A stretch of 23,254 bases of DNA from a virus. The stretch lies in IMG/VR virus record IMGVR_UViG_3300017767_000140, positions 1 to 23,254 of that record. One strand, written 5' to 3'. The position numbers and the translations under genes were made by a program. Shown piece after piece: positions 908 through 19,975 of this stretch; the stretch's first letter is position 1, and each line of letters opens with the position of its first letter. The notes under the pieces are model-generated. The model saw only the letters and a list, made by a program, of their open reading frames with translations, was not told where the DNA came from and did no database searches.

Positions 908-919
908 CTAAATATTTAC
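908..919 (+). promoter_or_regulatory. T4-late-promoter-like motif at the start of the metallopeptidase gene
   Basis: CTAAATATTTAC directly abuts the ATG at 920; TAAATATTT (909-917) is two bases from the start codon. The TAAATA core resembles the T4 late promoter TATAAATA. No Shine-Dalgarno sequence lies between motif and ATG. The TAAATATTT variant also occurs by chance inside AT-rich genes here, so this single site is weaker evidence than the TAAATAATT sites. Confidence 0.4.
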
Positions 920-1408
920 ATGATTTCGGTTGAGTTGAAAGCAAAACCAAAAGTCAAAAAGTGGTTAAAATTGCATAATATAAAATTCAAGGTTGTAGAA
1001 AAATGTTTTAATATATTTCTCAACTCTATTCGCGATTTTGATATACCAGATACAACTCAAATACAAATTGCTAATTGCGATCATACTAGTAGTGGTTACT
1101 ATTTTGGTTTCAACGAATTACATATTACCAAACATTTAGATCAGAACGGCTGGAGTAGAGATAAAAAACTTGATACATTTGTTGGTCACATACTACATGA
1201 AATGAGACATTGGATACAAGATAATATGCTCAACGTAGATGAAGGTAAATTAAATTATACAGATGAAGACTGTGAAAAATTTAGACCCAAATATTATTAT
1301 AATAAATGGGAAGTAGATGCTCGTAGATTTGAGCGTCGTTACAAAAAAGAATTTATAGATTTATATAATGTGCTTGATAAATTATCCGACAAGCCTGACT
1401 TGAAATAA
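920..1408 (+). CDS. Small HExxH zincin-like metallopeptidase
   Basis: A 162-residue protein with a clear zinc-peptidase signature. HEMRH (H93, E94, H97) sits in the helix HILHEMRHWIQ, giving two zinc-ligand histidines and the catalytic glutamate. A second helix, KWEVDARRFERRY (E131, D133), comes 34 residues after H97 and is a plausible source of the third ligand, as in gluzincins. The N-terminal half is a basic helix plus predicted strands (IQIANCD, YYFGFNELHI) preceding the active-site helix, the usual zincin order. No signal peptide or membrane segment is visible, so it should act in the infected cell or be packaged. The substrate is unknown. The start is fixed by the TAAATATTT motif just upstream. 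The 70-aa gene follows 31 nt later on the same strand. The motif is clear; activity and family are inferred. Confidence 0.7.
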   Translation: MISVELKAKPKVKKWLKLHNIKFKVVEKCFNIFLNSIRDFDIPDTTQIQIANCDHTSSGYYFGFNELHITKHLDQNGWSRDKKLDTFVGHILHEMRHWIQDNMLNVDEGKLNYTDEDCEKFRPKYYYNKWEVDARRFERRYKKEFIDLYNVLDKLSDKPDLK

Positions 1409-5671: not shown

Positions 5672-6559
5672 TTAACTTGCAATCTTTACACCGAAAAACG
5701 TAGCACCATCATTTAAGATTACTGCATTTGACGTAGTGAGTCTTATTGTCTGACCTTTTTTGACATACACAACTTTACTTAATTGAGCTTGATGTTTACC
5801 TTTGAGATCAGCTCCAGTACCTATAAATTGAGTTGAACCTACCTCTACTCCATCTAGTAGTAAAATTAAATCCGCGTATTTGGTAGGAGTTGTAGTACTT
5901 GTAGTACTTACCGTACCGTCGAATTGAAATTGAATAAAACCGTCAACGTAAGAACTATCTGATGGGTATGTAATTTTGAATGGACTAGAGGCGAACACCA
6001 CGTTAGGGTTTGTTAATACTGGATCAAGTGTCCTGGTAGAGAAACTAAATTCAGTAGTACCGGTGCCACCGTTACCAGTTTGAGTAACTACAAAATTTAC
6101 AGACTTTGTAGTTAATGTAATAGAATTTAATGCATCAGAATCAGTATTTTTCAACGTTGATTCAACTCTTGCAATCGCCTTTTCTACATCACCGATGCGT
6201 GTTTCATTGGTTGTTATCGTAGTTGATAAGGAAGCGAATTCCGATACTCCAACATAATTAAATCTACCTAATTCTACAGTACCGCTAATATCAGAATACT
6301 TCGTTAAATGGTCTGCGACAGTATCTGTTGTTAATATATTATATCCGGTTACTATGTCAGTCTCTGTACTAGTTTTACCTGTACGAGCGCCTTGAACTAG
6401 TTTATCTTTAAATGTAATATTCTCTTCTCCAATTACAAAATCTTTGAAAGATATTAGCTTGGTACCGTTATTGGTTTCAATAATGAGTTTATCGTTGTTT
6501 AGTATTTCTGTACCAACATCGATATCTGATATATTAATAATTTCGTCTTCTATGGCCAT
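5672..6559 (-). CDS. Putative tail-fibre-like protein with C-terminal jelly-roll (295 aa)
   Basis: The N-terminal 45 residues (DKLIIETNNGTKLISFKDF) resemble the short beta segment at the base of many phage fibre proteins, where 'NGTK.IsF.df' recurs. A middle region, about residues 110-140 (STTITTNETRIGDVEKAIARVESTLKN), has heptad spacing suited to a trimeric coiled coil. The C-terminal 120 residues form a Ser/Thr-rich beta domain ending FFGVKIAS, with LILLLDGVEVGSTQF and KKGQTIRLTT strands, which suggests a C1q/TNF-like trimeric head. This is fold-level inference only. The gene lies between two other beta-rich virion proteins. It starts with ATG 2 nt after a TAAATAATT motif, so it may be the first gene of its own late transcript, shared with the 1339-aa gene. 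Confidence 0.5.
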   Translation of the reverse strand: MAIEDEIINISDIDVGTEILNNDKLIIETNNGTKLISFKDFVIGEENITFKDKLVQGARTGKTSTETDIVTGYNILTTDTVADHLTKYSDISGTVELGRFNYVGVSEFASLSTTITTNETRIGDVEKAIARVESTLKNTDSDALNSITLTTKSVNFVVTQTGNGGTGTTEFSFSTRTLDPVLTNPNVVFASSPFKITYPSDSSYVDGFIQFQFDGTVSTTSTTTPTKYADLILLLDGVEVGSTQFIGTGADLKGKHQAQLSKVVYVKKGQTIRLTTSNAVILNDGATFFGVKIAS

Positions 6560-6573
6560 ATAATTATTTATTT
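6560..6573 (-). promoter_or_regulatory. T4-late-promoter-like motif before the 295-aa gene
   Basis: On the minus strand the sequence reads AAATAAATAATTAT then ATG. TAAATAATT covers 6570-6562, two bases from the start codon at 6559. It lies in the 17-nt gap after the stop of the 361-aa gene. With T4 late geometry the predicted transcription start is the A of the ATG. No Shine-Dalgarno is possible in so short a leader. Confidence 0.6.
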
Positions 6574-6576
6574 CTA

Positions 6577-7662
6577 TTAGTAATTTACAAACGCTGTAAT
6601 TGTACTTGTTGTTGTTGTTATTGAGTCACATCCTGTAACATCATATAAATCTAAGTAAAAATACCCTCCGGATGCTAACCCTGTCATCGATGTACCTACA
6701 CCTGTATTAACATTAGTAAAATAATAATCAGTCAATGAGGTCTTAGTACCAGTAATATCTATAAGAGGTATTGTTATTGTCTTAGTAGTTAAATCTATAT
6801 CCTTTATTATATCACCGCAATTCCAATTTAAGAAACCACTTAAGTGTATAAAGCTAGAATTCGCAGTCAATGGTACATAAAACAATTCTGGGTTGTTAGG
6901 TAAATTTATTACTGCATCTGAGTTACCTGATTCTGCAGACTCCGCTGCTCTTGTTCTATATTTAAAAGAAACTTTACCATTGTCTTTAGGTAAACCTGTG
7001 TTTGGATTAATAACATCTCCTAGACTTACTTGAATTGCATTACCTGTATTAGATTCAGATGCGTATGTGTGTACATAATCGGTTGTAAAGCCTACTGTAA
7101 AAGCATTTGTACTAGTAGTCTGACTAGTTGTAAGAGATGGATCATATCCAGCTTTACCTGGAACATCAATATCTAATAAACTCAATCCTATAACTTCTGG
7201 ATTTTTATTAATAAATGTTAATAGTAATTTTTCATTATCTACATCATTATTAAAATAGTCGGTTTTTAATAAGTTTACATCTTCGTAAGTAGTGATAGGT
7301 GGCTTAAACATTGTAAACTTTAAATCTACTACATCTACTTCCATATCATCTCTATAGATTGTAAAGTATACATGTCTTTTAGCTTGGTCGGTAAAGTCTG
7401 TTTGTATTACATGTTTAAAGTTTTCACTAGATAAAGATGCGATAGTTGTACCTGATAAAGATCTAGTTAAAACTAATTCCTTACCGTCATCAAAATCAAC
7501 AACAACCTTATTAATTTTATAGTCATTGTTAACTTCGTATAAAGCGTTTAATCCAGATAATGAAAACGTTACATCAGTAGTACCTGTTAAAGACTGAGAT
7601 TTAGTCTTTGTACCGCCTACGGCTTGTGGGGTTGCTGTTAATGTGTATGTAAACGTATTCAT
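6577..7662 (-). CDS. Beta-rich structural protein with PKD-like N-terminal domain (361 aa)
   Basis: I recognise no named family. Residues about 45-120 have PKD/immunoglobulin-like features: VVVDFDDGKELVL, a strand-loop, then KHVIQTDF and RHVYFTIYRDD, recalling the WDFGDG...HxY layout in degenerate form. The remainder is Thr/Ser-rich with regular hydrophobic alternation, as in phage tail beta-sandwich proteins. A central low-complexity stretch (SLTTSQTTSTNAFT) may be a linker. No membrane segment, signal peptide or catalytic motif is visible. The gene starts 3 nt after the stop of the 893-aa lectin-like gene (TAA CAA ATG), so the two are probably co-transcribed and perhaps translationally coupled. 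Its place among large adhesion-type proteins suggests a virion component at the baseplate edge; this is inference. Confidence 0.5.
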   Translation of the reverse strand: MNTFTYTLTATPQAVGGTKTKSQSLTGTTDVTFSLSGLNALYEVNNDYKINKVVVDFDDGKELVLTRSLSGTTIASLSSENFKHVIQTDFTDQAKRHVYFTIYRDDMEVDVVDLKFTMFKPPITTYEDVNLLKTDYFNNDVDNEKLLLTFINKNPEVIGLSLLDIDVPGKAGYDPSLTTSQTTSTNAFTVGFTTDYVHTYASESNTGNAIQVSLGDVINPNTGLPKDNGKVSFKYRTRAAESAESGNSDAVINLPNNPELFYVPLTANSSFIHLSGFLNWNCGDIIKDIDLTTKTITIPLIDITGTKTSLTDYYFTNVNTGVGTSMTGLASGGYFYLDLYDVTGCDSITTTTSTITAFVNY

Positions 7663-7665
7663 TTG

Positions 7666-10347
7666 TTAATTAAAGAATCCCTCCCAATCTTTGGTGAATG
7701 TTTCTCTGTCTCCCGGGCGCACAACGTGATCAATATCCCCATCTCCATCTCCTCCACCGTCAGAGGTTCCTGGAAGAAATTCCCCCGGGTCTATAGCGCA
7801 TGTACCTCCGCGACCTGTGTAGCTAGGGGCTGTTATTGGCATAAGGAACCATTCTTTTATATCTGAAGTATAATATTTTAAATAAGTTTCCATTTCTGTT
7901 TGCGCTTTACCATAGAACCTACTTTCATTTCCTACAGTAGGTGGTAAAGCGGTTTGCCTTATTTCCCAGTCTGTTTCTCCGGGTTGTTTACTTATTTCCT
8001 CTAACAATTTATCCTCAAAATATTTGTAATTATCAAACAAGATAGTTGATGTACTTTTACTTTTGTTTCTGGTGTGTCCTGGTTTTTTACTTTCTAGCCC
8101 AGGGCCTGCTGGCCCATGATACATAATACTATCTATCCAAACATAATAATCTTTTCCTTTAATTGTTATTTTATTACTTTTCAACCACACAAAATATGGT
8201 ATATCTCCTTCACTTTCGTAAACAGTAGAACTATATCTTGAACGACAGTGCGGAGTTAATCCTGTAATTAGCGGAGGCGGTTCGCCTTCTAGATCTGGTT
8301 CTGATATTTCCTCTCCTTGTATACTTCTTCCATCGTCTTTAATAACTGTAACTGATCCTGGTATTTTAGGAATATCTCCAGATTCTGCGACTGCAATTGT
8401 TTTATCAATTTGATTAGGGTTTAGTTTTGTAATTCTTACATCTACATCTTGTTCAATTATTTCAGGGTTATTATCATCGCATAATGTAATTTCAGCATTA
8501 GATATTTTAGAGACTGCTTTTGCTATTCTCGATTTCCCAGGGATTACCATCTCTACATCTACTGTGTCATTAGAATCTCCAATATCAACATTAATTAATT
8601 TTTTGCGTAAGTTTTTAGAAGATTCTTGTAAGTAATCTATTTTTTCAGTTACTGTTGCTGTTTCTTCTCTAAGTTTTCGAGGACCACTAGCCCATGGGTT
8701 ATGTACTTTAACTCCTGTAACTTCGAACTTATGAAGTTCAAATTGACTAGCTTTACTACTTGTAGTAAAGGATAAACCTACATTTAAAGGTGGTAATTCT
8801 TCATTTTTTATTTGTTGGTTATTTTGAAAACCTCTCCATGCGTTATATTTTTCTCCTGTTGTACCACTTGTTCCAACTCCAACATTTAATCTTAATTCTA
8901 ATATTGTATTATAATCTGTTTCACTAGTGAGCTTATTGTATACTGTTACCTTGGTACCTTTATTAGTTAAATCAACTCTATAATCTACAAACTGAGCTGA
9001 CACTGCAGAAGTATGCATTGGTACTGCTGCACCTGCTGTTGCACTCATGTCTACAGATGTGAGTACTTGAGTATCATAAAATTTGCTACCTCTTATACCT
9101 ATCGAGCATGGAGAAGCTGTATAAGAGGTACCATCAAACCAACCAGGTTTATCTTCTGAGGTTGATGCAAAGTTACCACCAATATCAAACCCAACCCCTA
9201 AGAAACTATCTGCCGGGCTACCTTCTCCTACACTACCAACGTTCCCTGTACCAGTATTACCGCTACCAACGTTCCCTGTACCAATATTACCACTATAACC
9301 AGTATTTGGATCCCAATTATTTCGTTTGAATAATCCAACTGTTGAATGCGCCGTACCAGCTACCTCATTAGAACTAAAATCTGCTATAGCATAACCTAGA
9401 GTAGAACCTACACCATTAGGAATTATAAACGAATTTCTTTCTGGGTTTCTAAAGAACGAAAGACAAAATCCTTCTCCTGCACCTGCTGGGGCCCATTGTT
9501 GTACCCATCTAGTAGCGCTAGTTCCTACGGATTGAGTTCCACCGTAAGCTGTAGGGCTTGGAACATTAAATGATCTAGCTCTAAAATCTACCCGAATTGT
9601 ATACTCTGGATCAAATGCAACGTATTTTGGATTATATGTTATAAAACCACCACTGTACAACATTGGGTAGAATTTATCTCCTGTAATGGCGTCAATAGTA
9701 GTGTTTGTTTGGTCGAGTACTAAATTAAAACCTAAACTACTTGTAGATTGTACGTGCATAGGTCCGATTGAGTAGTCCGGAGATCTTTCTATCTCAGCTC
9801 CAGTACTAGGGTTGAACCATGATGGTTTACCATTACGAACAGTATTACCTGCAATATATAAATCAGAATTTAAATATCCAGTTTCAAATGTAAATTGATC
9901 ATCAGTAAATTTTCCTTTAGGTATATAAATTTTTGAATCAAGTAAATGGAAATAGGAATTTACATCTTCAAATATAAAATTATTAAGACCAAGACCATCT
10001 GAATCAGAAGTATATCTCCCTAAGAATGTGACTGAATATCTTGATGTAGTTTTATTATAATTAATAAGAGGTTTTGTTATAGAATCAAAATTTGTACCTT
10101 CAGGACAAGTTGGAGTTACTGCAAATAGATCAGAATTAGAACTTAAACTAAATGATGTTAAATCTTTAGGGTATACTCTACTTTTGTAATTAGTGTTTTT
10201 ATCTATTTTGTATATTAAAGGAACAGCGCCATATACAATTTCTGAGGTACCATCACACCGATCAGCAGAGAGAGAGCTTACAGTACAAACAAACATTTCT
10301 TTTGTTTCGTCGTTGTAAAATACGTCTGATTGTTTAGTACTGAACAT
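7666..10347 (-). CDS. L-type-lectin-like virion protein with pentapeptide-repeat insertion (893 aa)
   Basis: Residues about 245-490 carry the layout of a legume/L-type lectin sandwich: GEGFCLSFFRNP, then GVGSTLGYA, then FLGVGFDIGGNF (the position of VEFDTxxN), then CSIGIRGSKFYD and the back strand VDYRVDLTNKGTKVTVYNK. Between the second and third elements, about residues 350-373, sits a repeat GNxG(S/T). Residues 1-70 look like part of a domain that begins in the preceding 774-aa protein. Residues about 560-660 are charged with a heptad-like helix (EKIDYLQESSKNLRKKL). The C-terminus is Gly/Asp-rich (GGGDGDGDIDHV). I infer a sugar-binding role at the tail tip. The frame is the same as that of the 774-aa gene, with only TAG TAA and three codons between. 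The start follows a TAAATAATT motif by 3 nt. Confidence 0.6.
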   Translation of the reverse strand: MFSTKQSDVFYNDETKEMFVCTVSSLSADRCDGTSEIVYGAVPLIYKIDKNTNYKSRVYPKDLTSFSLSSNSDLFAVTPTCPEGTNFDSITKPLINYNKTTSRYSVTFLGRYTSDSDGLGLNNFIFEDVNSYFHLLDSKIYIPKGKFTDDQFTFETGYLNSDLYIAGNTVRNGKPSWFNPSTGAEIERSPDYSIGPMHVQSTSSLGFNLVLDQTNTTIDAITGDKFYPMLYSGGFITYNPKYVAFDPEYTIRVDFRARSFNVPSPTAYGGTQSVGTSATRWVQQWAPAGAGEGFCLSFFRNPERNSFIIPNGVGSTLGYAIADFSSNEVAGTAHSTVGLFKRNNWDPNTGYSGNIGTGNVGSGNTGTGNVGSVGEGSPADSFLGVGFDIGGNFASTSEDKPGWFDGTSYTASPCSIGIRGSKFYDTQVLTSVDMSATAGAAVPMHTSAVSAQFVDYRVDLTNKGTKVTVYNKLTSETDYNTILELRLNVGVGTSGTTGEKYNAWRGFQNNQQIKNEELPPLNVGLSFTTSSKASQFELHKFEVTGVKVHNPWASGPRKLREETATVTEKIDYLQESSKNLRKKLINVDIGDSNDTVDVEMVIPGKSRIAKAVSKISNAEITLCDDNNPEIIEQDVDVRITKLNPNQIDKTIAVAESGDIPKIPGSVTVIKDDGRSIQGEEISEPDLEGEPPPLITGLTPHCRSRYSSTVYESEGDIPYFVWLKSNKITIKGKDYYVWIDSIMYHGPAGPGLESKKPGHTRNKSKSTSTILFDNYKYFEDKLLEEISKQPGETDWEIRQTALPPTVGNESRFYGKAQTEMETYLKYYTSDIKEWFLMPITAPSYTGRGGTCAIDPGEFLPGTSDGGGDGDGDIDHVVRPGDRETFTKDWEGFFN
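9233..9292 (-). repeat. 30-bp tandem repeat (two copies) encoding GNxG(S/T) pentapeptides
   Basis: Positions 9233-9262 and 9263-9292 are near-identical 30-mers differing at two positions that I can see. Each encodes two pentads of the type GNVGS/GNTGT on the minus strand; flanking sequence extends the pattern to about four or five pentads. The unit is inserted inside the lectin-like domain. The high identity of the two copies suggests recent duplication by slippage. Confidence 0.85.
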
Positions 10348-10360
10348 ATAAATTATTTAC
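10348..10360 (-). promoter_or_regulatory. T4-late-promoter-like motif at the 774-aa/893-aa junction
   Basis: The minus strand reads TAG TAA ATA ATT TAT ATG. The exact 9-mer TAAATAATT covers 10359-10351 and ends 3 nt before the start codon of the lectin-like gene, and its first three bases are themselves an in-frame stop codon. The predicted T4-type late start would fall one base before the ATG. Confidence 0.6.
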
Positions 10361-12684
10361 TACGTTATTATGGATTTCGAACTAGCTTTATTTTTAAATG
10401 ATCCATCTACAAAATCATATAACTCAGTTACTGTTTCTGCAGACGTTTGCACGTAAATTGTATTTTCGATGATATCAAAGTCTAATATATTACTCGTTGT
10501 AAGTATATTAGCCTTAGTAAGACCTGTAGAGTGCTTATTAAACACTGTTGCAAAAGCTGTAGAAAGTGGGTCTACTGTTTGAGTATGTATGTTTCTAACA
10601 AATACTTCTCCAGCGCTAATAAACTGTTGATCAAATAACTTTACTGCGGTTGTTGTTGGATCGTTAGTTGCTGATGCTTCATATGTAGTAGTAGAGTTTG
10701 TATATATAGAGGAAGTATCAATTGTCATATACGGTATTGTAGTTTCTGTAAAATAATGAGTTATTAAATCATTACTAGACCCTGGGTGACCAGCAAACGG
10801 CCCACCATCAATAGCTGAGACCGCGGAAACAGAACCACATGATAATGCTATTGTATGTAAGTCGCTACAGCTTGTAAAACCAGTTAATGGCGCAGAAAAT
10901 TGGTCTCTCCAACCATCATTAGATGGAGATGTACAATGAGTACCAGATTCTGGTAAAACATGACTAGTTATAAAAGTATCATACATTCCAGTTACGCTAG
11001 AATATAAAGTACCGGTGGCTTCATATTCAGCGCTAGATATAGCAGTAAGTAAAGTGTCAAAATATAACCCATCATAATATTCTGCAGCTGTTGTACAACC
11101 AGAGGAGGTACTTGAATCTGATGCACTGCTTATATATGATGTTCCTGCGTATCTCTTTGGGTATACGGGCTTTATAAAGTAAAACTCATTACCATATACA
11201 TCACTCCGTAATTTAATGCCTGTTTTATTAGTTATTAATAGATCTGTAAGCCTTTCTGACTCTGGATATATGTTTAATACGCTTATAGGGTATGTATCAG
11301 TATTTTTCCAATCTATATGACCAATTTCATCTTCCCAGAAACTAATATTATCTTCTCTTTTATTAATACCTGTAGAAGAGTACTCTAAGCTATTTTCTTG
11401 ACTTTGATATCCATAATTTCGTAATATTTTATTATTGTAAAAACTTATAGAAGCGCTTTGATCATTGTTTTTGTATTCGTTTGTTTTTGCTTTAAAAATG
11501 AGCGGTGTTTTTTGTTTTATTTTTATATTACGAAGAATCTCTCCAGTATTGCTATTTTTAATATAACCGACACATTTAATGCCAGGTTCATATTTATTAG
11601 GATTAGGAACTACATAACCTGTACCATTGAACGCAGATAAGTCTATATTAAATGTTAACCCGTTAGAATAAAAATTAGTTGTTCCAGTATTTTTAAAAGA
11701 CAATTGATACGGGTAAATTTCTGTACTTTTTATGTTTACAGGTTTGTTATATAAATTTGGATTGTATCTTTGATTTAAACTATTTGTAGGATTAGTATTA
11801 TTAAATAGCTGTATTGCTTTTGCAGATTGTTTATTACCAGATACATGATATAAATCATTTGCTAAATATTTTTCTATTAATCCTTTTTCGTGTGTAAATT
11901 TTAAATTTTCTAATGTCTTTTCTTCTCCTCTAAAGTATCTACCAGGTAATCTTTCAAAATTTGAAAACGGTTGATTAACGCTCAATATACTTTCAGGAGT
12001 TGATATATTATTAGTTTCTAGTTTTAACTTCTTACCATTAGTGTTTATTGATATTGCCTGTAATATATTAGGTACTTCGTTAAGTACCTTACGGGTAATA
12101 TTTAAAATTAAATCTTTATCTATTGCGTGAATGTTATACAAAAATTCATCAGAAACATAGCTCTTTAAATTTATTTCTATATTGTTTGCTATTTTTTGTA
12201 TATTAATATCTTCTATAGCGGTGTTAGTATTTTCTTTTACAAATTCTTTACTACTGAGTAACCTAGCTATATAATTTTTTAAATATTTTTTTATACCTGC
12301 TTTTGAAGTTTTAAGTTTATTTTTTGATGTAGAAAACTTAACCTCTTCTCTCAAATCTCGAACGTTAGTTAATTGGTTTTGTATTATTTCAATAAAATAG
12401 TGAACTGATAATTCTAGTTCATATACATCATCAGTATCTATTCTCTCAAGAAAGCGTTGTACATTAGTATCTAAAGTTGATAAATTTAAATTCTTTAAAA
12501 ATTGTATGTAAATATTTTTAGTATAATCGTTATTATAATTAGTATTTGTCTCTTTTTGATTTTTCCACTCAATAAGATAGTTATTATAATTTATCGACAA
12601 CTCAGAAGAGTCAGAAATATCTTCATAATAAGCTTTCCATTCAATAAAAGATAATGGATTAGTTGTATTTAAATCTATTGTCAT
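10360..12684 (-). CDS. Baseplate-associated or tail-peripheral protein of unknown family (774 aa)
   Basis: Not recognised as a named family. The first 230 residues are charged and helical (EWKAYYEDI; LSTLDTNVQRFLERIDTDDVYEL; KYLKNYIARLLSSKEF), like an adaptor that docks on a baseplate. Residues about 330-520 are beta-rich with many Asn and Tyr. Residues about 525-640 form an unusual small Ser/Thr-rich region with five cysteines (SSGCTT; GTHCTS; TSCSDL; LSCGS). The last 70 residues (ILDFDIIENTIYVQTSAETV) look like the first strands of a repeat domain that seems to continue in the N-terminus of the next gene. Its ATG overlaps the stop of the 836-aa gene (ATGA), and a good Shine-Dalgarno AAGGAAAGG lies 9 nt upstream. 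It occupies roughly the position after gp7 in T4-like order, but I cannot assign it to gp8. Confidence 0.5.
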   Translation of the reverse strand: MTIDLNTTNPLSFIEWKAYYEDISDSSELSINYNNYLIEWKNQKETNTNYNNDYTKNIYIQFLKNLNLSTLDTNVQRFLERIDTDDVYELELSVHYFIEIIQNQLTNVRDLREEVKFSTSKNKLKTSKAGIKKYLKNYIARLLSSKEFVKENTNTAIEDINIQKIANNIEINLKSYVSDEFLYNIHAIDKDLILNITRKVLNEVPNILQAISINTNGKKLKLETNNISTPESILSVNQPFSNFERLPGRYFRGEEKTLENLKFTHEKGLIEKYLANDLYHVSGNKQSAKAIQLFNNTNPTNSLNQRYNPNLYNKPVNIKSTEIYPYQLSFKNTGTTNFYSNGLTFNIDLSAFNGTGYVVPNPNKYEPGIKCVGYIKNSNTGEILRNIKIKQKTPLIFKAKTNEYKNNDQSASISFYNNKILRNYGYQSQENSLEYSSTGINKREDNISFWEDEIGHIDWKNTDTYPISVLNIYPESERLTDLLITNKTGIKLRSDVYGNEFYFIKPVYPKRYAGTSYISSASDSSTSSGCTTAAEYYDGLYFDTLLTAISSAEYEATGTLYSSVTGMYDTFITSHVLPESGTHCTSPSNDGWRDQFSAPLTGFTSCSDLHTIALSCGSVSAVSAIDGGPFAGHPGSSNDLITHYFTETTIPYMTIDTSSIYTNSTTTYEASATNDPTTTAVKLFDQQFISAGEVFVRNIHTQTVDPLSTAFATVFNKHSTGLTKANILTTSNILDFDIIENTIYVQTSAETVTELYDFVDGSFKNKASSKSIIT

Positions 12685-15191
12685 ATATTAAGACCTTTCC
12701 TTATTTGATAATCTACATTTTTATATATTATACCACCAGTACTATCCCAATTACTAATAGAAGATGTACTGCGAGTAACAGATGTATAATCATTACTGAA
12801 ATCTACAATACTGTTTTTTAAATTTTGTACAGAAGACGTAGTGTCGAAAGTTGTATATGGGTAGAAAATATAAAAACCATCTAAACCACTTGCTCCTGAA
12901 ACTGAAGTATCTAATGGCCAACCCCAGTTACTATATACATTATAAGAGCTTAGTGGGTATGTAGAAGATTCTCCAGACGAACTACCATCAACATGTTTGG
13001 TTGCAACTTTTTGAGGTTTTACTACTACAAACTCATTGTTAAACTTTTGCCTAGCTACAAAATTAGTATAAGCTGAAACAGTGTATGTTGATGCTGTGAT
13101 AGGGTTGTTAAAATCTACGTTTCTTCCGTCTGCTGAAGTTGTGTAGTAGTTAGAGTTTAAACTTTGTTCTTGTCGTTCATAATCCCCTAAGAGTTTAGTT
13201 AATTTTATACTAAACAAATCATATAACCGTTTTAACTCTGGAGGAGGAGTTGGTAATACAATATCTATATCTTCATTGAAGAAATCATAAAATGATTGTA
13301 AGTTATCTAGGTTACAATAATCAACATCGTTATTATTTGCAACAAAGTTTGCTATTTTTTCAAAAACTGTTTTACCGAAAACAGTAGGACTTGAGCTTGC
13401 TTCACCAACAAACGAAGTAAATATACCGTCAAATAAATTATCATATTCATGTAAAAAAGATTGAAATCTATAATCTTTTATTGTTTGAGAATAATCTATA
13501 TCCTCGTTAGTTTTATAAACCTCAACATCATTTGTAGAAGGCAGTACTGTAAAAGTATAGGATGCTTCAATCACATTGCCAGTACCTGCATTACCAGCTC
13601 CTAAGTTACCTGAACCAACATCTCCATGAGAAGCTGTTAAAGCAACTGGACCAAGCGGGCCAGTACCATCATAATCTATTACCTCACCGAAACCAGAAAC
13701 TGATTGAGTTGAAGTAAAGGAATCCAGTCTACCAGTTATGTTTAATGTCCATGTACCTGCTTCTTGTGGGGTAATGTTAGTATATAGAAAACTACTTAAA
13801 TTTGTTTTACTAGTAGAAGTGTCATATGGAAATTTATTTGTACTAATACTACTTATGTTAGAAGTAGTTGTTGTAGTACCATCAGTCCATTCTAAGTAAA
13901 ATTGATTATCTGCAGTTATAGTATTAGTATTACTCCATAAAAAGTTAGGGTAAAATTTAGCAATATTTAACTCTCTATCTGCTAATGCTATAAACAATTG
14001 AAATTTATCTCCTTGTCTTTTATATTGTATACCAGACATTTCCTTCATACCTGTAGAGGTGAAAGAGAGTCTTGTAGGAGTTGGTTTAGAAATCTTAATT
14101 GGATAGCCAACCTCTGTAGTCGCGGTACCTACAAATGCGCCTACTTGATTTGTTTCTAGAAATGTTAAACCACTATTGTTAATATCTGAGTCAATATCAT
14201 CTATATAAAAATTTCTTACTTTATGTTTACTAGTATCAAGCTTAAACAATAACCTCACACCAGGATTAATATTAGGTATATCATCATAATATATAAATGC
14301 TGGTGTATCATGGGCGGATACAGAATATGGATGAGAGGGTTGCATTGATGTAACTCCTGCCGTGTTTGTAAATGTACTATCATAACCTTGGAACGTACTT
14401 ACTGTAGCACCTAACAAATAAGGAGTCATACCAGCAACAGTAAACTCTTCTACTTTATCTTCTAAAATTGGCTCTATTTTACTAGTAGAAGGATTAACTA
14501 CATAATACTGATTGTTTAATTTAAAATTTAAACCTTTAATGCTATTAATTAGACTACCATCTTGTGGGTCAAAAAAAGCATTATACGGCACTAAGTGAGC
14601 GTATTTACTTTTAGTATCGTATGGTTTAGCTTTACTACCGCTCGCTGTGAGGTATAAGGTAAATTTACCATCCTCTGGTATGTCTTGCCATGAAGCAGAA
14701 ACACCTGCATTAAACAAATTATTTTTTGATCCTGCTGGAAATTGAGCAGCAGAAACAGAAGCAACATAATTATTACTAATAGCTACATTAGTCGGTACAT
14801 GATTGTAAACTGATACTGATTTAGTAACTGTGTTAATATTAGTATTACCTTCTTCGTTAAAGAAATACATTGATACTTTATATATACCAGGTACTTTATA
14901 TCTATGAGTAGTTGTAGTAGTGTTAGCGGCGCTAAGAGTATAACCATCTCCAAAATCCCATACTGCGTTAGTATTAGATAATCTAGGTTCAAAATTATCT
15001 ATAATTGAAGAGCTAGTACCTGTTAAATCTGCAGCAAAGGTAAAATTAGATATTCTAGTAAAACCGGCTTGACTAGTTGATAATGGTTCTACTTTAGTCA
15101 CATCAATAGGAGGAGGAGAGGCTGATGTATTAACAGTAACAGTTATCGGTACTGGTATACTATCAGGAGTGTTGGTTAGTGGATTAGACAT
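12681..15191 (-). CDS. PKD-domain baseplate wedge candidate in gp7 position (836 aa)
   Basis: Residues about 45-130 form a clear PKD domain: VWDFGDG (77-83), then HRYKVPGIYKVSMYF (96-110), the standard WDFGDG...H.Y..pG.Y.V pattern. Residues about 521-540 carry GNLGA/GNAGT pentads like those in the 893-aa protein. Residues about 555-700 (RFQSFLHEYDNLFDGIF; YDFFNEDIDIVLPTPPPELKRLYDLFSIKLTKLLG) read like the helical P2 gpI-type segment found in T4 gp7, which docks on gp6. The gene follows gp25 and gp6 in the order seen in T4, supporting a gp7-type wedge role; T4 gp7 is over 1000 residues. The PKD module suggests an added surface-binding function. ATG overlaps the gp6 stop (TAATG). No Shine-Dalgarno. 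The PKD domain is seen; gp7 equivalence is inference. Confidence 0.55.
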   Translation of the reverse strand: MSNPLTNTPDSIPVPITVTVNTSASPPPIDVTKVEPLSTSQAGFTRISNFTFAADLTGTSSSIIDNFEPRLSNTNAVWDFGDGYTLSAANTTTTTHRYKVPGIYKVSMYFFNEEGNTNINTVTKSVSVYNHVPTNVAISNNYVASVSAAQFPAGSKNNLFNAGVSASWQDIPEDGKFTLYLTASGSKAKPYDTKSKYAHLVPYNAFFDPQDGSLINSIKGLNFKLNNQYYVVNPSTSKIEPILEDKVEEFTVAGMTPYLLGATVSTFQGYDSTFTNTAGVTSMQPSHPYSVSAHDTPAFIYYDDIPNINPGVRLLFKLDTSKHKVRNFYIDDIDSDINNSGLTFLETNQVGAFVGTATTEVGYPIKISKPTPTRLSFTSTGMKEMSGIQYKRQGDKFQLFIALADRELNIAKFYPNFLWSNTNTITADNQFYLEWTDGTTTTTSNISSISTNKFPYDTSTSKTNLSSFLYTNITPQEAGTWTLNITGRLDSFTSTQSVSGFGEVIDYDGTGPLGPVALTASHGDVGSGNLGAGNAGTGNVIEASYTFTVLPSTNDVEVYKTNEDIDYSQTIKDYRFQSFLHEYDNLFDGIFTSFVGEASSSPTVFGKTVFEKIANFVANNNDVDYCNLDNLQSFYDFFNEDIDIVLPTPPPELKRLYDLFSIKLTKLLGDYERQEQSLNSNYYTTSADGRNVDFNNPITASTYTVSAYTNFVARQKFNNEFVVVKPQKVATKHVDGSSSGESSTYPLSSYNVYSNWGWPLDTSVSGASGLDGFYIFYPYTTFDTTSSVQNLKNSIVDFSNDYTSVTRSTSSISNWDSTGGIIYKNVDYQIRKGLNI
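12694..12702 (-). promoter_or_regulatory. Shine-Dalgarno of the 774-aa gene
   Basis: AAGGAAAGG on the minus strand, 9 nt before the ATG at 12684, inside the 3' end of the 836-aa gene. It is the only strong Shine-Dalgarno-like sequence I found before any start in the window. It fits a gene that must be re-initiated inside a polycistronic message. Confidence 0.6.
13571..13628 (-). repeat. GNxG(S/A/T) pentapeptide repeat in the gp7-position protein
   Basis: The minus strand encodes GDVGS, GNLGA, GNAGT, GNV in a row (residues about 521-540). It is the same five-residue pattern as in the lectin-like protein three kilobases downstream, but with different codons, so the match is at protein level. 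It forms a loop between two beta-rich segments. Confidence 0.75.
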
Positions 15192-17026
15192 TAATATTCA
15201 ACGACTCTATTGTTACTAGTTGATGATTTTACTTTAATTTTGTTTTTAAATAAAGTTGAATTTTCTATATAAGGTATTTGATAAGGTTTTAACTGACATC
15301 TAGTATCAATATTTTTTATATCTCTTCCATTATAAATTGGGTTAAAAATACATAAAGAAAGACCAGGTACACCAGATCCTTCTACATCAGTTCTTATTGT
15401 TTCTATTTTCTCTATACCTTTAATCTTTTCAAGTTCGTTATTCAAAAATCTCACATCTATTAAACCTCCAAGTTTTATAGAATCTATATAGGTTGTTATA
15501 GTATTAAATACTTTTGTTTTTAAATCTTCTTCATTTATTAGAGAACGAGAACTTCTGCTTATTTCCAAACATGTATAATCTTTATAAGATGTTTTATTTG
15601 TCTCGCTAGAGAAGGATAAAGATAAATCTAAGTTTAAGTATACTGGATCAATAAAAGCAATTTCACTGTTAAGTAATTTGTAATCTTCGATCTCGCTTCG
15701 TATTTTTTCTTTTAGAGAATTAGAAAGATAATTAGAACGAGTTACTACTGTTTTATTTTTACGCAAATTCGGTACAATAGTTAGATATATGTTATTTGCA
15801 TCTGCGCTATCTGCAAAATAAAATTGATTAAAAAGCGCGTTTGTATCTAATGTATAATCTGTTAGACCTAACTCATCATTAACATATTTTAAATAGTCAT
15901 TAGTATAATCACTATTATTTTGTACCGTTACATCGTAAATTAAGTTTTTATAGTTTCGTTGTATAAAACTTTTATAATCTCCTTTCGTAGTTAGTTTATA
16001 TTCTGAACTAAAGAACCGAGGCGCGTTTTGTTTTATTTCTGATACTTTTTCTTCTTCTCCAAAATCTGTACTATCTTCAGTATTATTAATATTAACATTT
16101 AATACAGATTCTATTCCAAGATAATTTAATGATGTATCTTTTATATCTGCCCATATAGTATCGTATTGAGAAGTATTATAAATGTTAATTGAACTATCAA
16201 CAAATGTATTTTTGGTAACCTTGCCTACTTCCCCAGAGGATTTGATATAATAAATTGCGACTTGATCTCCGCTGTTTAACTTTTTACCGTTTACATTATT
16301 ACCAAATTTTAATTCATAGTTTTTATTTTCATTATATCTAATTTCAAAAACTCTTTCATTTGCATTTGCTAAGAATATACTAGGTACTCTTTTCCAAGTA
16401 TACCATTTATTTTCTTCATTTGTTTCTTTAACATAAACAAATATATTAAAGTGATCTATTATTACATTACCACCTGGTAATAAGTTTATTGTTTCAAATT
16501 TTTCTCCTATAGGATTAACTATAGGGTATTCTTCTATAGTTCCTTCATATAATAATTGGTTACCTGTTGCTGTAATAGTTTCTGTTTCAGATGTTACCTT
16601 TTCAAATGTAAGGTCGTTAGTGAAGGTAAATGTTTTACCTCCGGTGCTTGCAAACGTAAATTTAGGTACTGTATAGTAACCAGCAGATAAATCACTTGTA
16701 CCTTTTATGTTCACTGGTAACACACTTGATTGTTTACCTACAGGTTTATAATCAATAAGTTTGACTATGCGATTTATATTTTCATATAACTCTGCATCAT
16801 TAAAATTACTCTCTGAACTAGTCTGATTTAAGTAAAACAATAAAGTATGATATGAGTATGAAATAATATCTATAAGCGCAGAGATGTTACTACCTTCAAA
16901 GTTTTGATCTGTAAAATTAATATTGGTGTCGTTATTAATTCTAGATATGATTAGATCTCGTAAGCTTTGGGCATCAAAGCTTGCATATGCGTCTGTCGGT
17001 AAATCGAATTGTGTATATTTTGCCAT
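15191..17026 (-). CDS. 6: Baseplate wedge protein, gp6/J-like (611 aa)
   Basis: Core component of the contractile-tail baseplate wedge; in T4 gp6 dimers form the continuous inner ring that joins the wedges. The N-terminal 100 residues are diagnostic: SNISALIDIISYSYHTLLFYLNQTSSESNFNDAELY spread over about 45-85, followed by INRIVKLIDYKPVGKQSS, which matches the helical start of gp6/P2 gpJ family proteins. A beta-rich middle follows (about 100-300), and the C-terminal half contains the J-like helical/strand part (DLKTKVFNTITTYIDSIKLGG, VRFLNNELEKIKGIEKI). Length is close to T4 gp6 (660 aa). It lies 2 nt after the gp25 stop, the conserved gp25-gp6 neighbour order. A weak AGG lies 11 nt before the ATG. 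Assignment is strong. Confidence 0.87.
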   Translation of the reverse strand: MAKYTQFDLPTDAYASFDAQSLRDLIISRINNDTNINFTDQNFEGSNISALIDIISYSYHTLLFYLNQTSSESNFNDAELYENINRIVKLIDYKPVGKQSSVLPVNIKGTSDLSAGYYTVPKFTFASTGGKTFTFTNDLTFEKVTSETETITATGNQLLYEGTIEEYPIVNPIGEKFETINLLPGGNVIIDHFNIFVYVKETNEENKWYTWKRVPSIFLANANERVFEIRYNENKNYELKFGNNVNGKKLNSGDQVAIYYIKSSGEVGKVTKNTFVDSSINIYNTSQYDTIWADIKDTSLNYLGIESVLNVNINNTEDSTDFGEEEKVSEIKQNAPRFFSSEYKLTTKGDYKSFIQRNYKNLIYDVTVQNNSDYTNDYLKYVNDELGLTDYTLDTNALFNQFYFADSADANNIYLTIVPNLRKNKTVVTRSNYLSNSLKEKIRSEIEDYKLLNSEIAFIDPVYLNLDLSLSFSSETNKTSYKDYTCLEISRSSRSLINEEDLKTKVFNTITTYIDSIKLGGLIDVRFLNNELEKIKGIEKIETIRTDVEGSGVPGLSLCIFNPIYNGRDIKNIDTRCQLKPYQIPYIENSTLFKNKIKVKSSTSNNRVVEY

Positions 17027-17028
17027 TT

Positions 17029-17511
17029 TTATGTGTACCTAAACCCTGTTGCTGTTAGTAATCCGCTAGCGGTCCCTTTTTTATTATTTAATGATGGTAT
17101 TATGATAGATATACTAATTTTATATTCGTTTTGATCAGGTCGTGCAATTATATCTACACTATCTACTGTAACTCGGGGTTCATACAACGATAACTCTTCA
17201 TAAATTGTATTACCTATTAGATCTCCATTTTCCTTTGATATGTTCTCAAATAAATACTGTTCTAGGTCTAATCCAAAATTTGGAGATAATATTTTTTGTC
17301 CTTTTTTAGTATTAAAAGTGTTTCTTATAGAGTTGTAAATTGCAGCTTCATCATAACTTATTTTTAAATCTTGATTGTTTTTATTAGCGCCAACAGTTTT
17401 ATTAGAGAGAAAACTATTAAGTTCTATATCTAAATGTAAGTCTGCATAAGAGTAATTACGATAACTATCCCTATTCTTTACATCTTTTAGGATATCTAAT
17501 TTAAGAGCCAT
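17029..17511 (-). CDS. 25: Baseplate wedge protein gp25
   Basis: Small inner-wedge protein of the GPW_gp25 family, which links wedge to hub and triggers sheath assembly. The family signature is present: IYNSIRNTFNTKKGQKILSPNFGLDLEQYLFE (residues 58-89 region) followed by LSLYEPRVTVDSVDI, with the invariant E111-P112-R113 motif, then the two closing strands YKISISIIIPS. At 160 residues it is longer than T4 gp25 (132 aa), with an N-terminal extension of about 50 residues and a C-terminal tail. It is the first gene of the long minus-strand cluster. Its ATG is 4 nt after a TAAATAATT motif, and 46 nt separate it from the divergent 165-aa gene. Assignment is strong. Confidence 0.92.
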   Translation of the reverse strand: MALKLDILKDVKNRDSYRNYSYADLHLDIELNSFLSNKTVGANKNNQDLKISYDEAAIYNSIRNTFNTKKGQKILSPNFGLDLEQYLFENISKENGDLIGNTIYEELSLYEPRVTVDSVDIIARPDQNEYKISISIIIPSLNNKKGTASGLLTATGFRYT

Positions 17512-17526
17512 GTATAATTATTTAAT
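17512..17526 (-). promoter_or_regulatory. T4-late-promoter-like motif before gp25
   Basis: The minus strand reads ATTAAATAATTATAC then ATG. TAAATAATT covers 17524-17516, four bases from the start codon. It is one arm of a 46-bp divergent promoter region whose other arm (17543-17557) carries the same 9-mer for the opposite gene. It would drive the whole gp25-to-lectin cluster. Confidence 0.65.
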
Positions 17527-17542
17527 TTTAAAAGGCTTAAAA

Positions 17543-17557
17543 GAATAAATAATTTAA
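17543..17557 (+). promoter_or_regulatory. T4-late-promoter-like motif before the 165-aa gene
   Basis: GAATAAATAATTTAA abuts the ATG at 17558; TAAATAATT covers 17546-17554, three bases from the start. With AATAAATA in place of TATAAATA it is one mismatch from the T4 late consensus. No Shine-Dalgarno is present. Confidence 0.65.
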
Positions 17558-18055
17558 ATGAGTAAATTCGATACTATATTTGAACAACAAATTGGTCGAT
17601 TTGTAAAATCCGGTCCTATTGCTGGGGATTATGTTAAGATCAAAGGTAACTGCGAATCTTCAGATTGGTATAAATCTCTTGATGAAGCTAGGCAAAACTA
17701 TATACAAGAGATTAAAACTTTATCAGAACAAGGTAAACCTCTTATGTTATCTACTATTAAAAAAGCTGTATATGAGACAGGTACAACAGATACCCAAACT
17801 CAATTAGCAGATATTGCAGTAGAATACGCCCCAGGGTTATATCAAAACAGCTTAACTATTCCTTTAGAATTATTGGAGTTTAGTATATCTTCTGCAGATG
17901 CCCGTGGTACTCAAAAAGATCCTACTAACGATCAAAAAGATCCCACTACATTAAAACCTGAAGAAGTAGAAGATGCAGCGATTGATGTTGGTCAGCAAAC
18001 TAAAGTACCTAACGGAGATTATAAGTTAACTACTGCGAAGTATTTAAACGCTTAG
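17558..18055 (+). CDS. Conserved-looking phage protein of unknown function (165 aa)
   Basis: No named family recognised. The N-terminus MSKFDTIFEQQIGRF could be an amphipathic helix. It is followed by GDYVKIKGN and a DWYKSL...IQEIKTL segment, then two strands (KPLMLSTIKKAVYE; TIPLELLEFSIS) that suggest a small SH3- or OB-like barrel. The C-terminal third is polar and probably disordered, with a short internal duplication KDPTNDQKDPTT. There are no cysteine pairs, membrane segments or signal peptide. It is a single-gene + strand unit between two minus-strand clusters, with its own late-type promoter motif and its own terminator inside the opposing clamp-loader gene. The promoter type suggests a late, possibly virion-associated product; that is inference. 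The 3' end overlaps the clamp-loader 3' end by 12 nt. Confidence 0.6.
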   Translation: MSKFDTIFEQQIGRFVKSGPIAGDYVKIKGNCESSDWYKSLDEARQNYIQEIKTLSEQGKPLMLSTIKKAVYETGTTDTQTQLADIAVEYAPGLYQNSLTIPLELLEFSISSADARGTQKDPTNDQKDPTTLKPEEVEDAAIDVGQQTKVPNGDYKLTTAKYLNA

Positions 18056-18952
18056 TTCAAGGATACAAGAATAGAAGTTGATCTCCTGATCAATACATTG
18101 ACTATTCTGATAAAAATATCTAGAGACTGTTAAAAGACAGTCTCTCTTTTTGTCTACATCTATAGAAGATTCAAATATATAATCAAATAACTTCTTAAAT
18201 AAAACATCATAATCATTATTAAAGACAGTTTCATTCTCAATAATAAACTTTCTTATAGCTGTATATTTTTTATTTCGTAGAAGATCTATCAAGCCGTCAA
18301 AAAGCTCAGATATATCTCCAAACATACCTTCTTTACCTCCTGATAAAGCATACTTTTGTAAAGCGTTAATGCCTCTTCGGAAATCTGGATAACAACTATT
18401 AATAATATTAGTGAAATCTTCTTTATTAATCTTTACTTCTTCAGCTTTAACAATTGATATCAACTTAGTAATATACTCGTTTTTATCATGATTGAGATCG
18501 AATATTTGACACCTACTTTGAAGAGCTGGTATAATCTTATGTTTATAATTAGCTGTAAGTACAAATCGAGTTAAGTCATGATACTCTTCTATAGAATTAC
18601 GAAGAGCTTTTTGAGCATCAATTGATAGACCATCGCACTCGTCAAGTATTATAACCTTAATGCTCCCAAAGAGACTCTTTGTCTGCGCGAAGTTTAGAAC
18701 TTTTGTACGTATAGTATCTATTCCGTTTTCATCTGACGCATTGATGTAGAGATACTGGCAATTGAGAACATCTGATACTATGATCTTCGCTAAAGAAGTT
18801 TTGCCAATACCAGGTCTTCCAACGAACATAACATTAGGTATATTCTTATCCTCTCGTACTTTATTAAAATAATTACGAGTATTCGGATTGAGTACAATTT
18901 CTTTTAAAGTACTTGGTCTGTACTTCTCACACCATATATCAGATACGTTCAT
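18044..18952 (-). CDS. 44: Sliding-clamp loader ATPase subunit, T4 gp44 / RFC-small-subunit type
   Basis: AAA+ ATPase that opens and loads the sliding clamp for the replicative polymerase. All key elements are present: the RFC box WCEKYRP (7-13), Walker A GRPGIGKT (45-52), Walker B IILDECD (101-107), sensor-1 TAN (133-135) and the SRC arginine-finger motif S146-R147-C148. A collar-type helical domain follows to the end. At 302 residues it is close to T4 gp44 (319 aa). In T4 the loaded clamp also activates late transcription, relevant to the late-like motifs nearby. Its ATG overlaps the dUTPase stop (ATGA), so the two are co-expressed. No gp62-like small subunit or gp45-like clamp gene adjoins it here. 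The 3' end overlaps the opposing 165-aa gene by 12 nt and contains that gene's terminator. Assignment is strong. Confidence 0.92.
   Translation of the reverse strand: MNVSDIWCEKYRPSTLKEIVLNPNTRNYFNKVREDKNIPNVMFVGRPGIGKTSLAKIIVSDVLNCQYLYINASDENGIDTIRTKVLNFAQTKSLFGSIKVIILDECDGLSIDAQKALRNSIEEYHDLTRFVLTANYKHKIIPALQSRCQIFDLNHDKNEYITKLISIVKAEEVKINKEDFTNIINSCYPDFRRGINALQKYALSGGKEGMFGDISELFDGLIDLLRNKKYTAIRKFIIENETVFNNDYDVLFKKLFDYIFESSIDVDKKRDCLLTVSRYFYQNSQCIDQEINFYSCILELSV
18122..18151 (+). terminator. Intrinsic terminator of the 165-aa gene, inside the antisense clamp-loader gene
   Basis: A 9-bp perfect stem AGAGACTGT / ACAGTCTCT (18122-18130 with 18137-18145), a 6-nt loop TAAAAG, then C and TTTTT (18147-18151). 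It starts 66 nt after the 165-aa stop codon, in the correct + orientation. The DNA also codes for the C-terminal part of the clamp loader (DKKRDCLLTVSRYF region) on the minus strand. Confidence 0.75.
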
Positions 18953-19455
18953 GCAGATGGGTATTCTTTAAAATTATCATAAATAGACATTTTATCTGTA
19001 TCCATATCTGATTTATAATCAGTAGAACCGAAACCTGCATCTCCTCGATCAGCCTCTACTACTTCATCTACAAAACCAACTTTAGCTATTACATGAGGAT
19101 ACAAAACTAATTGTGCAATTTTTGTACCTTTGTTTAAAGTAATATTAACATCACTAAAGTTGTATAACTTCACACCTAGATCTCCTCTGTAACCATTATC
19201 AATAATACCTAAGTGAGGTTGTAAGTTATGTTTAAAACCTAAACCACTTCTAGGTTCAACACGGAACCACCAACCAGGAGTCAAATAACCTAGAGTTAAA
19301 CCAACAGGAACTACAACTGACCCTCTTCCAGGAACAATAACTTCTGATACGCTATATAGATCATATCCTGAATCACTATCATGGGCTCGTTCTGGTAGTT
19401 TGGCGTCTTCGTGGGTCTTTACAAACTTCATACTAAGCTGTTCTTTTGAACTCAT
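18949..19455 (-). CDS. dut: Trimeric dUTPase (dUTP diphosphatase)
   Basis: Hydrolyses dUTP to dUMP and pyrophosphate, keeping uracil out of phage DNA and feeding dTMP synthesis. The five conserved motifs are all visible, numbered from the ATG at 19455: I AHDSDSGYDL (24-33), II EPRSGLGF (67-74), III GIIDNGYRGDLGV (83-95), IV KGTKIAQL (109-116), V RGDAGFGSTD (137-146). The glycine-rich motif V normally closes the protein; here about 22 more residues follow (ending KEYPSA). I chose ATG at 19455; a TTG at 19461 would add two residues, and ATG at 19431 would remove eight. A sigma-70-like promoter sits immediately upstream. It shares an ATGA overlap with the clamp loader. Assignment is strong. Confidence 0.94.
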   Translation of the reverse strand: MSSKEQLSMKFVKTHEDAKLPERAHDSDSGYDLYSVSEVIVPGRGSVVVPVGLTLGYLTPGWWFRVEPRSGLGFKHNLQPHLGIIDNGYRGDLGVKLYNFSDVNITLNKGTKIAQLVLYPHVIAKVGFVDEVVEADRGDAGFGSTDYKSDMDTDKMSIYDNFKEYPSA

Positions 19456-19461
19456 ACACAA

Positions 19462-19489
19462 AATATAGTATATAATAGAGATTTTTCAA
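19462..19489 (-). promoter_or_regulatory. Sigma-70-like promoter of the dUTPase-clamp loader pair
   Basis: On the minus strand TTGAAA (19489-19484), a 16-nt spacer and TATATT (19467-19462), followed by only 6 nt to the ATG at 19455. It is unlike the late-type motifs, consistent with earlier expression of the replication genes. A start 6-7 nt after the -10 box would again give an mRNA with almost no leader. Confidence 0.5.
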
Positions 19490-19501
19490 GTAAATATTTT
19501 T
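19490..19501 (+). promoter_or_regulatory. T4-late-promoter-like motif before the 157-aa gene
   Basis: GTAAATATTTTT abuts the ATG at 19502; TAAATATTT covers 19491-19499, two bases from the start. Same geometry as the motif at 908-919. It is back to back with the dUTPase promoter in a 46-bp divergent gap. Moderate support because this variant also occurs by chance in AT-rich DNA. Confidence 0.4.
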
Positions 19502-19975
19502 ATGGATGATATTAACCCGGATGATTTGATTTCGCAACTTAAGTCTATACCTGCAGATAGTAAGATGTTAGAACGAGCTGCTCAAGATCATCCAGAATTG
19601 AATAAAGAAGATGTAGAGGAGTTTGTTATTAAAAACTCTTCGAAGTTAATTCAAGATAGTCTAGAGTTAATAGACAATATGAAAGAAGTAGTTCATCATA
19701 TGCCAGAAGCAGAAAATATATCATCCCTCGCAGAATTAATTAAAGCATCTTCTGGAGCTATAGAAACATTAAACAAAATTGTTATACAAGATAAAAAGTC
19801 TAATACTACTATTACATCAAAGAAAATGGATATTGAATCTAGGAAAGAACTTCAAACTGCAGACCAAAGTCATGCGTTAACTATGAGTAGGGAAGAGATT
19901 ATGGCTAAACTTATAAATGATAAATCTGTTATTAATGTTGATGCAGAAGTTCGCGATCCTGAAAAACTTAACTAA
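19502..19975 (+). CDS. Putative small terminase subunit (gp16-like), 157 aa
   Basis: An acidic, all-helical protein. The layout recalls T4-type gp16: an acidic N-terminal helical part (DDINPDDLISQL; HPELNKEDVEEFV), a central helical hairpin (KLIQDSLELIDNMKEVVHHM then ISSLAELIKASSGAIETLNKIV, residues about 51-95), and a C-terminal segment with a strand-helix 'LTMSREEIMAKLI' where gp16 has its 'VF.GS..eL' box. I see no catalytic motif, as expected for a DNA-recognition subunit. Against this: in T4-like phages gp16 is normally followed by gp17, and here the next gene is convergent. A scaffold or other helical virion protein remains possible. It is a lone + strand gene with a late-type motif at its start; its end overlaps the opposing 358-aa gene by 8 nt. 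Confidence 0.5.
   Translation: MDDINPDDLISQLKSIPADSKMLERAAQDHPELNKEDVEEFVIKNSSKLIQDSLELIDNMKEVVHHMPEAENISSLAELIKASSGAIETLNKIVIQDKKSNTTITSKKMDIESRKELQTADQSHALTMSREEIMAKLINDKSVINVDAEVRDPEKLN

Follow-up and report, generated by a model that had tools for sequence, protein, structure and literature searches.

Within a 23,254-nt stretch of a virus record (31.6% GC; hereafter the window), boxes resembling the T4 late promoter lie 11-13 nt before the ATGs of six genes on both strands. Probably these are gp55-dependent late promoters fused to start codons, which would yield leaderless or nearly leaderless mRNAs, with early promoters apparently placed in the same register.

The window covers part of the genome of an uncultivated marine phage and has the genes of a T4-like myovirus, encoding a gp6-type, a gp25-type and another baseplate wedge protein, a gp44 clamp loader and a dUTPase. 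Named phages are distant from it (gp6 about 25% identity; clamp loader 37% to P-SSM2), and the DNA polymerase of one of its relatives is 31% identical to that of phage C48C1 and 30% to that of HTVC008M. The close relatives found are all IMG/VR contigs (G001-G007, gp6 67-94% identical), while G008 and G009 are farther relatives (gp6 about 36% identical). G006 is a 200-kb record, and G004 and G007 are near-copies of it and hence not independent. The freshwater relative G008 carries a 16-tRNA gene cluster (L125:10486-18505) and 18 tRNA genes in all, versus two in G006 and none in G003.

A single rule was applied to every record to call ORFs of at least 80 aa, with a simple ORF caller that takes the first ATG as the start. 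Positions were counted with the A of the ATG as 0, and dinucleotide shuffles were made of the same 40 nt. The T4 late box lies about one helical turn upstream of the transcription start (PMC2988020). Predicted +1 positions take the box at -13 to -6, assuming that the divergent gp55 retains T4 geometry; a TAAATA beginning 11 nt before an ATG therefore has its predicted +1 on the A of that ATG.

Late-type boxes in the window

The 9-mer TAAATAATT occurs exactly five times in the window: at 2720(+), inside a gene, and at 6570-6562(-), 10359-10351(-), 17524-17516(-) and 17546-17554(+), where it ends 2, 3, 4 and 3 nt before the ATGs at 6559(-), 10347(-), 17511(-) and 17558(+). This confirms the initial annotation, which had placed the 9-mer 2-4 nt before the ATGs of four genes and found a sole other copy within a gene; its T4 geometry, with the box at -13 to -6, likewise gives predicted leaders of 0, 1, 2 and 1 nt for these genes. 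It had, however, overlooked two further genes, so that the total is six: 920(+) and 19502(+) carry near-copies in the same register, TAAATATTTAC-ATG and TAAATATTTTT-ATG, with TAAATATTT in the register of the exact 9-mers. It also overlooked a sigma70-like promoter that stands in this register before the dUTPase gene. All features are listed in Table 1.

Table 1. Coordinates of promoter-like elements and genes in the window
Feature	Coordinates	Strand	Predicted +1	Predicted leader (nt)	Remarks
Late-type box TAAATA(TTTAC) before ATG 920	909..914	+	920	0	-11 spacing also in G006, G003, G002 orthologues
Late-type box TAAATA(ATTAT) before ATG 6559	6565..6570	-	6559	0	-11 kept in G006, G002, G007
Late-type box TAAATA(ATTTAT) before ATG 10347	10354..10359	-	10348	1	-12 kept in G006, G003, G002, G005 at 38-42% protein identity; starts immediately past stop codon of upstream gene
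Late-type box TAAATA(ATTATAC) before ATG 17511	17519..17524	-	17513	2	spacing unchanged in nearly all close gp6-relative loci
Late-type box TAAATA(ATTTAA) before ATG 17558	17546..17551	+	17557	1	
Late-type box TAAATA(TTTTT) before ATG 19502	19491..19496	+	19502	0	-11 kept in G006, G003, G002, G005
Sigma70-like promoter TTGAAA-N16-TATATT	19462..19489	-			ends 6 nt before dUTPase ATG 19455
Gene, 162-aa protein, behind late-type box	920..1408	+			
Gene, 295-aa protein, behind late-type box	5672..6559	-			no PHROG match
Gene, 893-aa protein, Gly-rich GNxGxGN repeats, behind late-type box	7666..10347	-			no PHROG match
Gene, gp6-like baseplate wedge protein	15191..17026	-			phrog_219 5.6e-44; own box absent; 2 nt downstream of gp25 gene
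Gene, gp25-like baseplate wedge protein	17029..17511	-			phrog_261 2.4e-23
Gene, 165-aa protein, behind late-type box	17558..18055	+			
Gene, gp44-like clamp loader	18044..18952	-			phrog_168 1.8e-77; without late-type box; overlaps dUTPase gene
Gene, dUTPase	18949..19455	-			phrog_135 1.1e-46
Gene, 157-aa protein, behind late-type box	19502..19975	+			

The raw number of exact copies is ordinary for the window (expected 2.9, s.d. 1.9) and is not evidence, because 19 of 100 shuffles also give five or more. It is the position that is unusual: TAAATA lies at -13 to -11 in 6 of the 16 testable window genes, against a shuffle mean of 0.14 and a maximum of 2. All six have the form TAAATA-wTT, and they comprise every ATG-called window gene of at least 80 aa with an upstream gap, except the dUTPase gene. 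Each begins a transcription unit or follows a gap, versus one of the ten others (Fisher p 0.0009); nine of these ten are packed tightly behind a neighbour, and the tenth is the dUTPase gene.

The boxes for 17511 and 17558 stand back-to-back within one 46-nt gap, whose length, unlike its variable centre, is constant in nearly all close gp6-relative loci; a pattern for this bidirectional element matches 52 stretches of IMG/VR viral DNA. The window has two divergent ATG-to-ATG gaps, each of 46 nt: 17512-17557 holds two late-type boxes, and 19456-19501 pairs a late-type box with a sigma70-like promoter that faces in the opposite direction. Gly-rich GNxGxGN repeats are common to two large proteins, encoded at 7666-10347 and 12681-15191 (-) (GNIGTGNVGSGNTGTGN; GDVGSGNLGAGNAGTGN), neither of which had a PHROG match.

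Position, conservation and late transcription genes across the relatives

TAAATA was found at -13 to -11 in 28 of 217 genes of G006 (shuffle mean 2.2, maximum 6), 20/122 of G003, 15/75 of G002, 16/122 of G004, 24/168 of G008 and 14/138 of G009, with shuffle means of 0.9-2.2 and maxima of 4-9 across these six records, and it is scarce between -20 and -60. T4 and Syn9 have it in no gene at -13 to -11 and in 19 and 14 genes, respectively, at -35 to -27, and P-SSM2 in 3 and 24. The count of distances to starts proposed by the initial annotation thus came out as it expected, with the motif concentrated 11-13 nt before starts in the relatives and nearly absent at a T4-like distance. Base composition does not account for the shift, because the more AT-rich Campylobacter phage WX1 (27.6% GC), used as a control, keeps the box mostly at -21 to -37 and retains leaders. 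Leaders are present in phage C48C1 and mostly also in Melnitz, where three genes have the box at -11.

The inner edge of the distribution in G006 is sharp, with a peak of 13 genes at -11, none at -10 and a tail out to -19, which is the shape expected if a transcription start cannot enter the coding sequence. For boxes at -14 to -19 the predicted leader is 3-8 nt long, which still leaves no space for a Shine-Dalgarno (SD) sequence, although 'strictly leaderless' is too strong a term for these genes. A gap or a divergent neighbour precedes 44 of the 52 boxed G006 genes, versus 70 of 164 others (p 7e-8).

Orthologues at 38-70% protein identity retain the box and its spacing, whereas the DNA farther upstream has diverged. 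Between G006 and G003 the box is kept in 16 of 20 boxed orthologues, mostly with the same spacing to the nucleotide, and it is present in only 4 of 80 unboxed ones (76/80 without). In alignments anchored at the ATG, identity is 75-85% in columns -14 to -6 versus about 50% upstream of -20; the -35 region is not conserved in sequence, its identity of about 50% being at the same level as in unboxed genes. Boxed genes include those for the head maturation protease, tail tube, endolysin, gp25 and gp6 relatives and PhoH, and also thymidylate kinase. No box was found at the gp43, gp44, gp46, gp32 and gp55 genes examined in the clade.

As the initial annotation proposed, homologues of the late transcription proteins were sought. 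A gp55 is encoded in G006 (phrog_234, E 1.7e-28) and in G002, with homologues also in G003, G004, G008 and G009; the window fragment itself does not carry it. A candidate sliding clamp adjoins gp32 in G006; it is the lone G006 protein of 80-330 aa that aligns well with gp45 (hhalign E 8e-5; next 0.02), and structure prediction gives it a fold like that of sliding clamps (Foldseek E 1e-8; model pLDDT 64.5, of moderate confidence). Among the G006 proteins of 80-330 aa none matched gp33, which is a small and divergent protein, and the record may not be complete. The clade keeps the TA at -13/-12 of the T4 box only weakly, with A at -12 in 48% versus 88% in T4.

Translation signals, probable early promoters and alternative explanations

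An SD-like tetramer stands before 2 of 58 boxed genes in G006 and before none of the six in the window, versus 9 of 11 genes in T4, bearing out the earlier statements that the fusion leaves no room for a ribosome-binding site and that T4 keeps SD leaders. Unboxed genes are also near the SD background (26/159 versus 24/217 in a control stretch). The dUTPase gene most likely starts at ATG 19455 rather than at the listed TTG 19461, because this ATG sits directly behind a sigma70-like promoter in register. The same promoter is found at the G002 and G006 orthologues, and in the clade the arrangement TTGA-N17-TATAAT-N6/7-ATG, with the -10 element at -12 or -13, recurs at the genes for DNA helicase, dUTPase, QueD and others. 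TTGAC occurs 17 times at -40 to -33 in G008 (0.7 expected), and T4, Syn9 and P-SSM2 have no such excess there. A strict sigma70-like pattern is found 2-5 times per genome at -16 to -12 (expected 0.1-0.2); because these numbers are small, the case for early promoters is weaker than that for the late class. The register nevertheless matters, since a two-part promoter sets the +1 without any assumption about gp55. Fusion therefore seems to be the general way in which this lineage starts its genes, and not a late-only device.

From the position, conservation and context of the box we infer a mechanism in which TAAATA-wTT would serve as a late promoter of the T4 type, recognised by gp55 with RNA polymerase and aided by the sliding clamp. 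Its placement would make transcription begin at the A of the start codon or a few nucleotides (up to 8) before it, so that late transcription units would give leaderless or nearly leaderless mRNAs, translated from a 5'-terminal AUG without SD pairing in a host suited to this; early units would use sigma70-like promoters in the same register.

Chance deserves hardly any credence as an alternative. AT-rich DNA before starts might make TAAATA frequent, and the raw count of the 9-mer in the window is indeed not enriched; yet dinucleotide shuffles of that same DNA give means of 0.1-2.2 against 6-28 observed, WX1 at 27.6% GC lacks the -11 to -13 placement, and orthologues conserve the spacing, so that shuffles and orthologue conservation together refute it. 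It is also very unlikely that the boxes are promoters with misassigned start codons, the true starts lying downstream behind an ordinary SD leader. The starts were called as the first ATG of each ORF, which leaves room for such errors, but the assignment is supported because in several proteins conservation reaches back to codon 2, with changes mostly at third positions (0.14/0.08/0.33), a downstream in-frame start behind an SD-like tetramer exists in just 3 of 52 boxed genes, and the annotators of HTVC008M chose the same ATGs.

A more serious, though still improbable, alternative is that the AT-rich element is a translation signal, an unstructured landing site for SD-independent ribosomes, with the real promoters farther upstream. 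A lineage generally without SD sequences needs another start signal, and the element invariably abuts the ATG. It is, however, concentrated at the starts of transcription units, although tightly packed genes need translation too, and it is absent from replication genes. Its core is that of the T4 late box, which in T4 is a promoter 27-35 nt upstream, and sigma70-like promoters independently occupy the same register. Fused promoters remain the reading that we prefer.

We lean, with less assurance, towards a lineage that is leaderless across temporal classes, in which host-sigma70 early and gp55 late promoters are both fused to starts and the SD sequence is dispensed with, HTVC008M being a mixed intermediate with fusion mainly at late genes. 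This would imply a host, marine and freshwater, with ribosomes that initiate chiefly at 5'-terminal AUGs or disregard SD sequences. A phage-encoded ribosomal protein bS21 (64 aa; 80969-81163 in G006) was considered as the cause of SD-free translation; it was found in G006, HTVC008M and Melnitz only and is not required, being absent from G003, G008 and G009. For a Bacteroidota host, considered because SD sequences are absent, the promoters give no support: the Bacteroidota element TAnnTTTG is not enriched, and sigma70-like spacing is. The best matches of the G006 bS21 are mostly Bacteroidota, but this was not taken to indicate such a host because the scan was pattern-biased and the HTVC008M bS21 is about equally close. 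For an actinobacterial host, WhiB was searched and none was found.

Relation to known systems

Both T4-type late promoters and leaderless phage mRNAs are already known. Their combination was not found in the literature searched, which included few subscription papers, and neither was a description of the arrangement in HTVC008M.

In T4, the textbook case of late transcription, the late messages have leaders with SD sequences. T4 late promoters (TATAAATA, served by gp55/gp33/gp45) share with the window clade the TAAATA core, AT-rich DNA just downstream, the lack of a conserved -35, an encoded gp55 and sliding clamp, and use at virion genes. They differ in the distance from box to ATG, which is mostly 27-35 nt in T4, where an SD leader intervenes, but 11-13 nt in the clade, where SD is absent, the TA at -13/-12 is weak and gp33 was not found. 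Cyanophage late promoters (S-PM2 NATAAATA; Syn9, P-SSM2) belong to related phages and have the same core, but in Syn9 and P-SSM2 the box peaks at -27 to -35 and leaders are about 16-24 nt.

The Pelagibacter phage HTVC008M, an isolate, shows the same fusion: the annotated starts of structural genes (those for tape measure, baseplate, gp2, gp4, gp54 and gp3, among them the divergent gp2/gp4 pair) have a TAAATAGTA-like box at exactly -11. It differs from the clade in its extended box TAAATAGTA, in SD sequences at about half of its genes and in an annotated gp33, and a few of its late boxes have a leader with SD. Fusion here coexists with SD in about half of the genes and is therefore not tied to SD loss. 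The initial annotation was thus right to propose fused late promoters, but its framing was too narrow, since sigma70-like early promoters appear to be fused as well and the fusion also occurs in this isolate. The cultured phages form a series from Melnitz (MZ577097; mostly leaders, three fused late boxes) to HTVC008M (mostly fused late boxes, SD elsewhere), with the window clade at its fused-throughout end.

The arrangement provides a simple rule by which the starts and promoters of these marine phages can be annotated, and the question of translation initiation becomes testable in the cultured pair HTVC008M and HTCC1062. It may also explain why late promoter prediction was reported as unsuccessful in pelagimyophages (PMC7029224), if that search expected another distance.

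Leaderless phage transcripts elsewhere arise by different means. Middle and late genes of the Thermus phage P23-45 give leaderless transcripts, and a mention in PMC5312081 attributes such transcripts to the late TATG promoters of phiKZ. In both phages, as in the clade, the promoter abuts or overlaps the start codon, but other polymerases or hosts are involved and not gp55-type late transcription. In the window clade, a promoter of the T4 type would have shifted by about 17 nt, making a single element of promoter and start codon.
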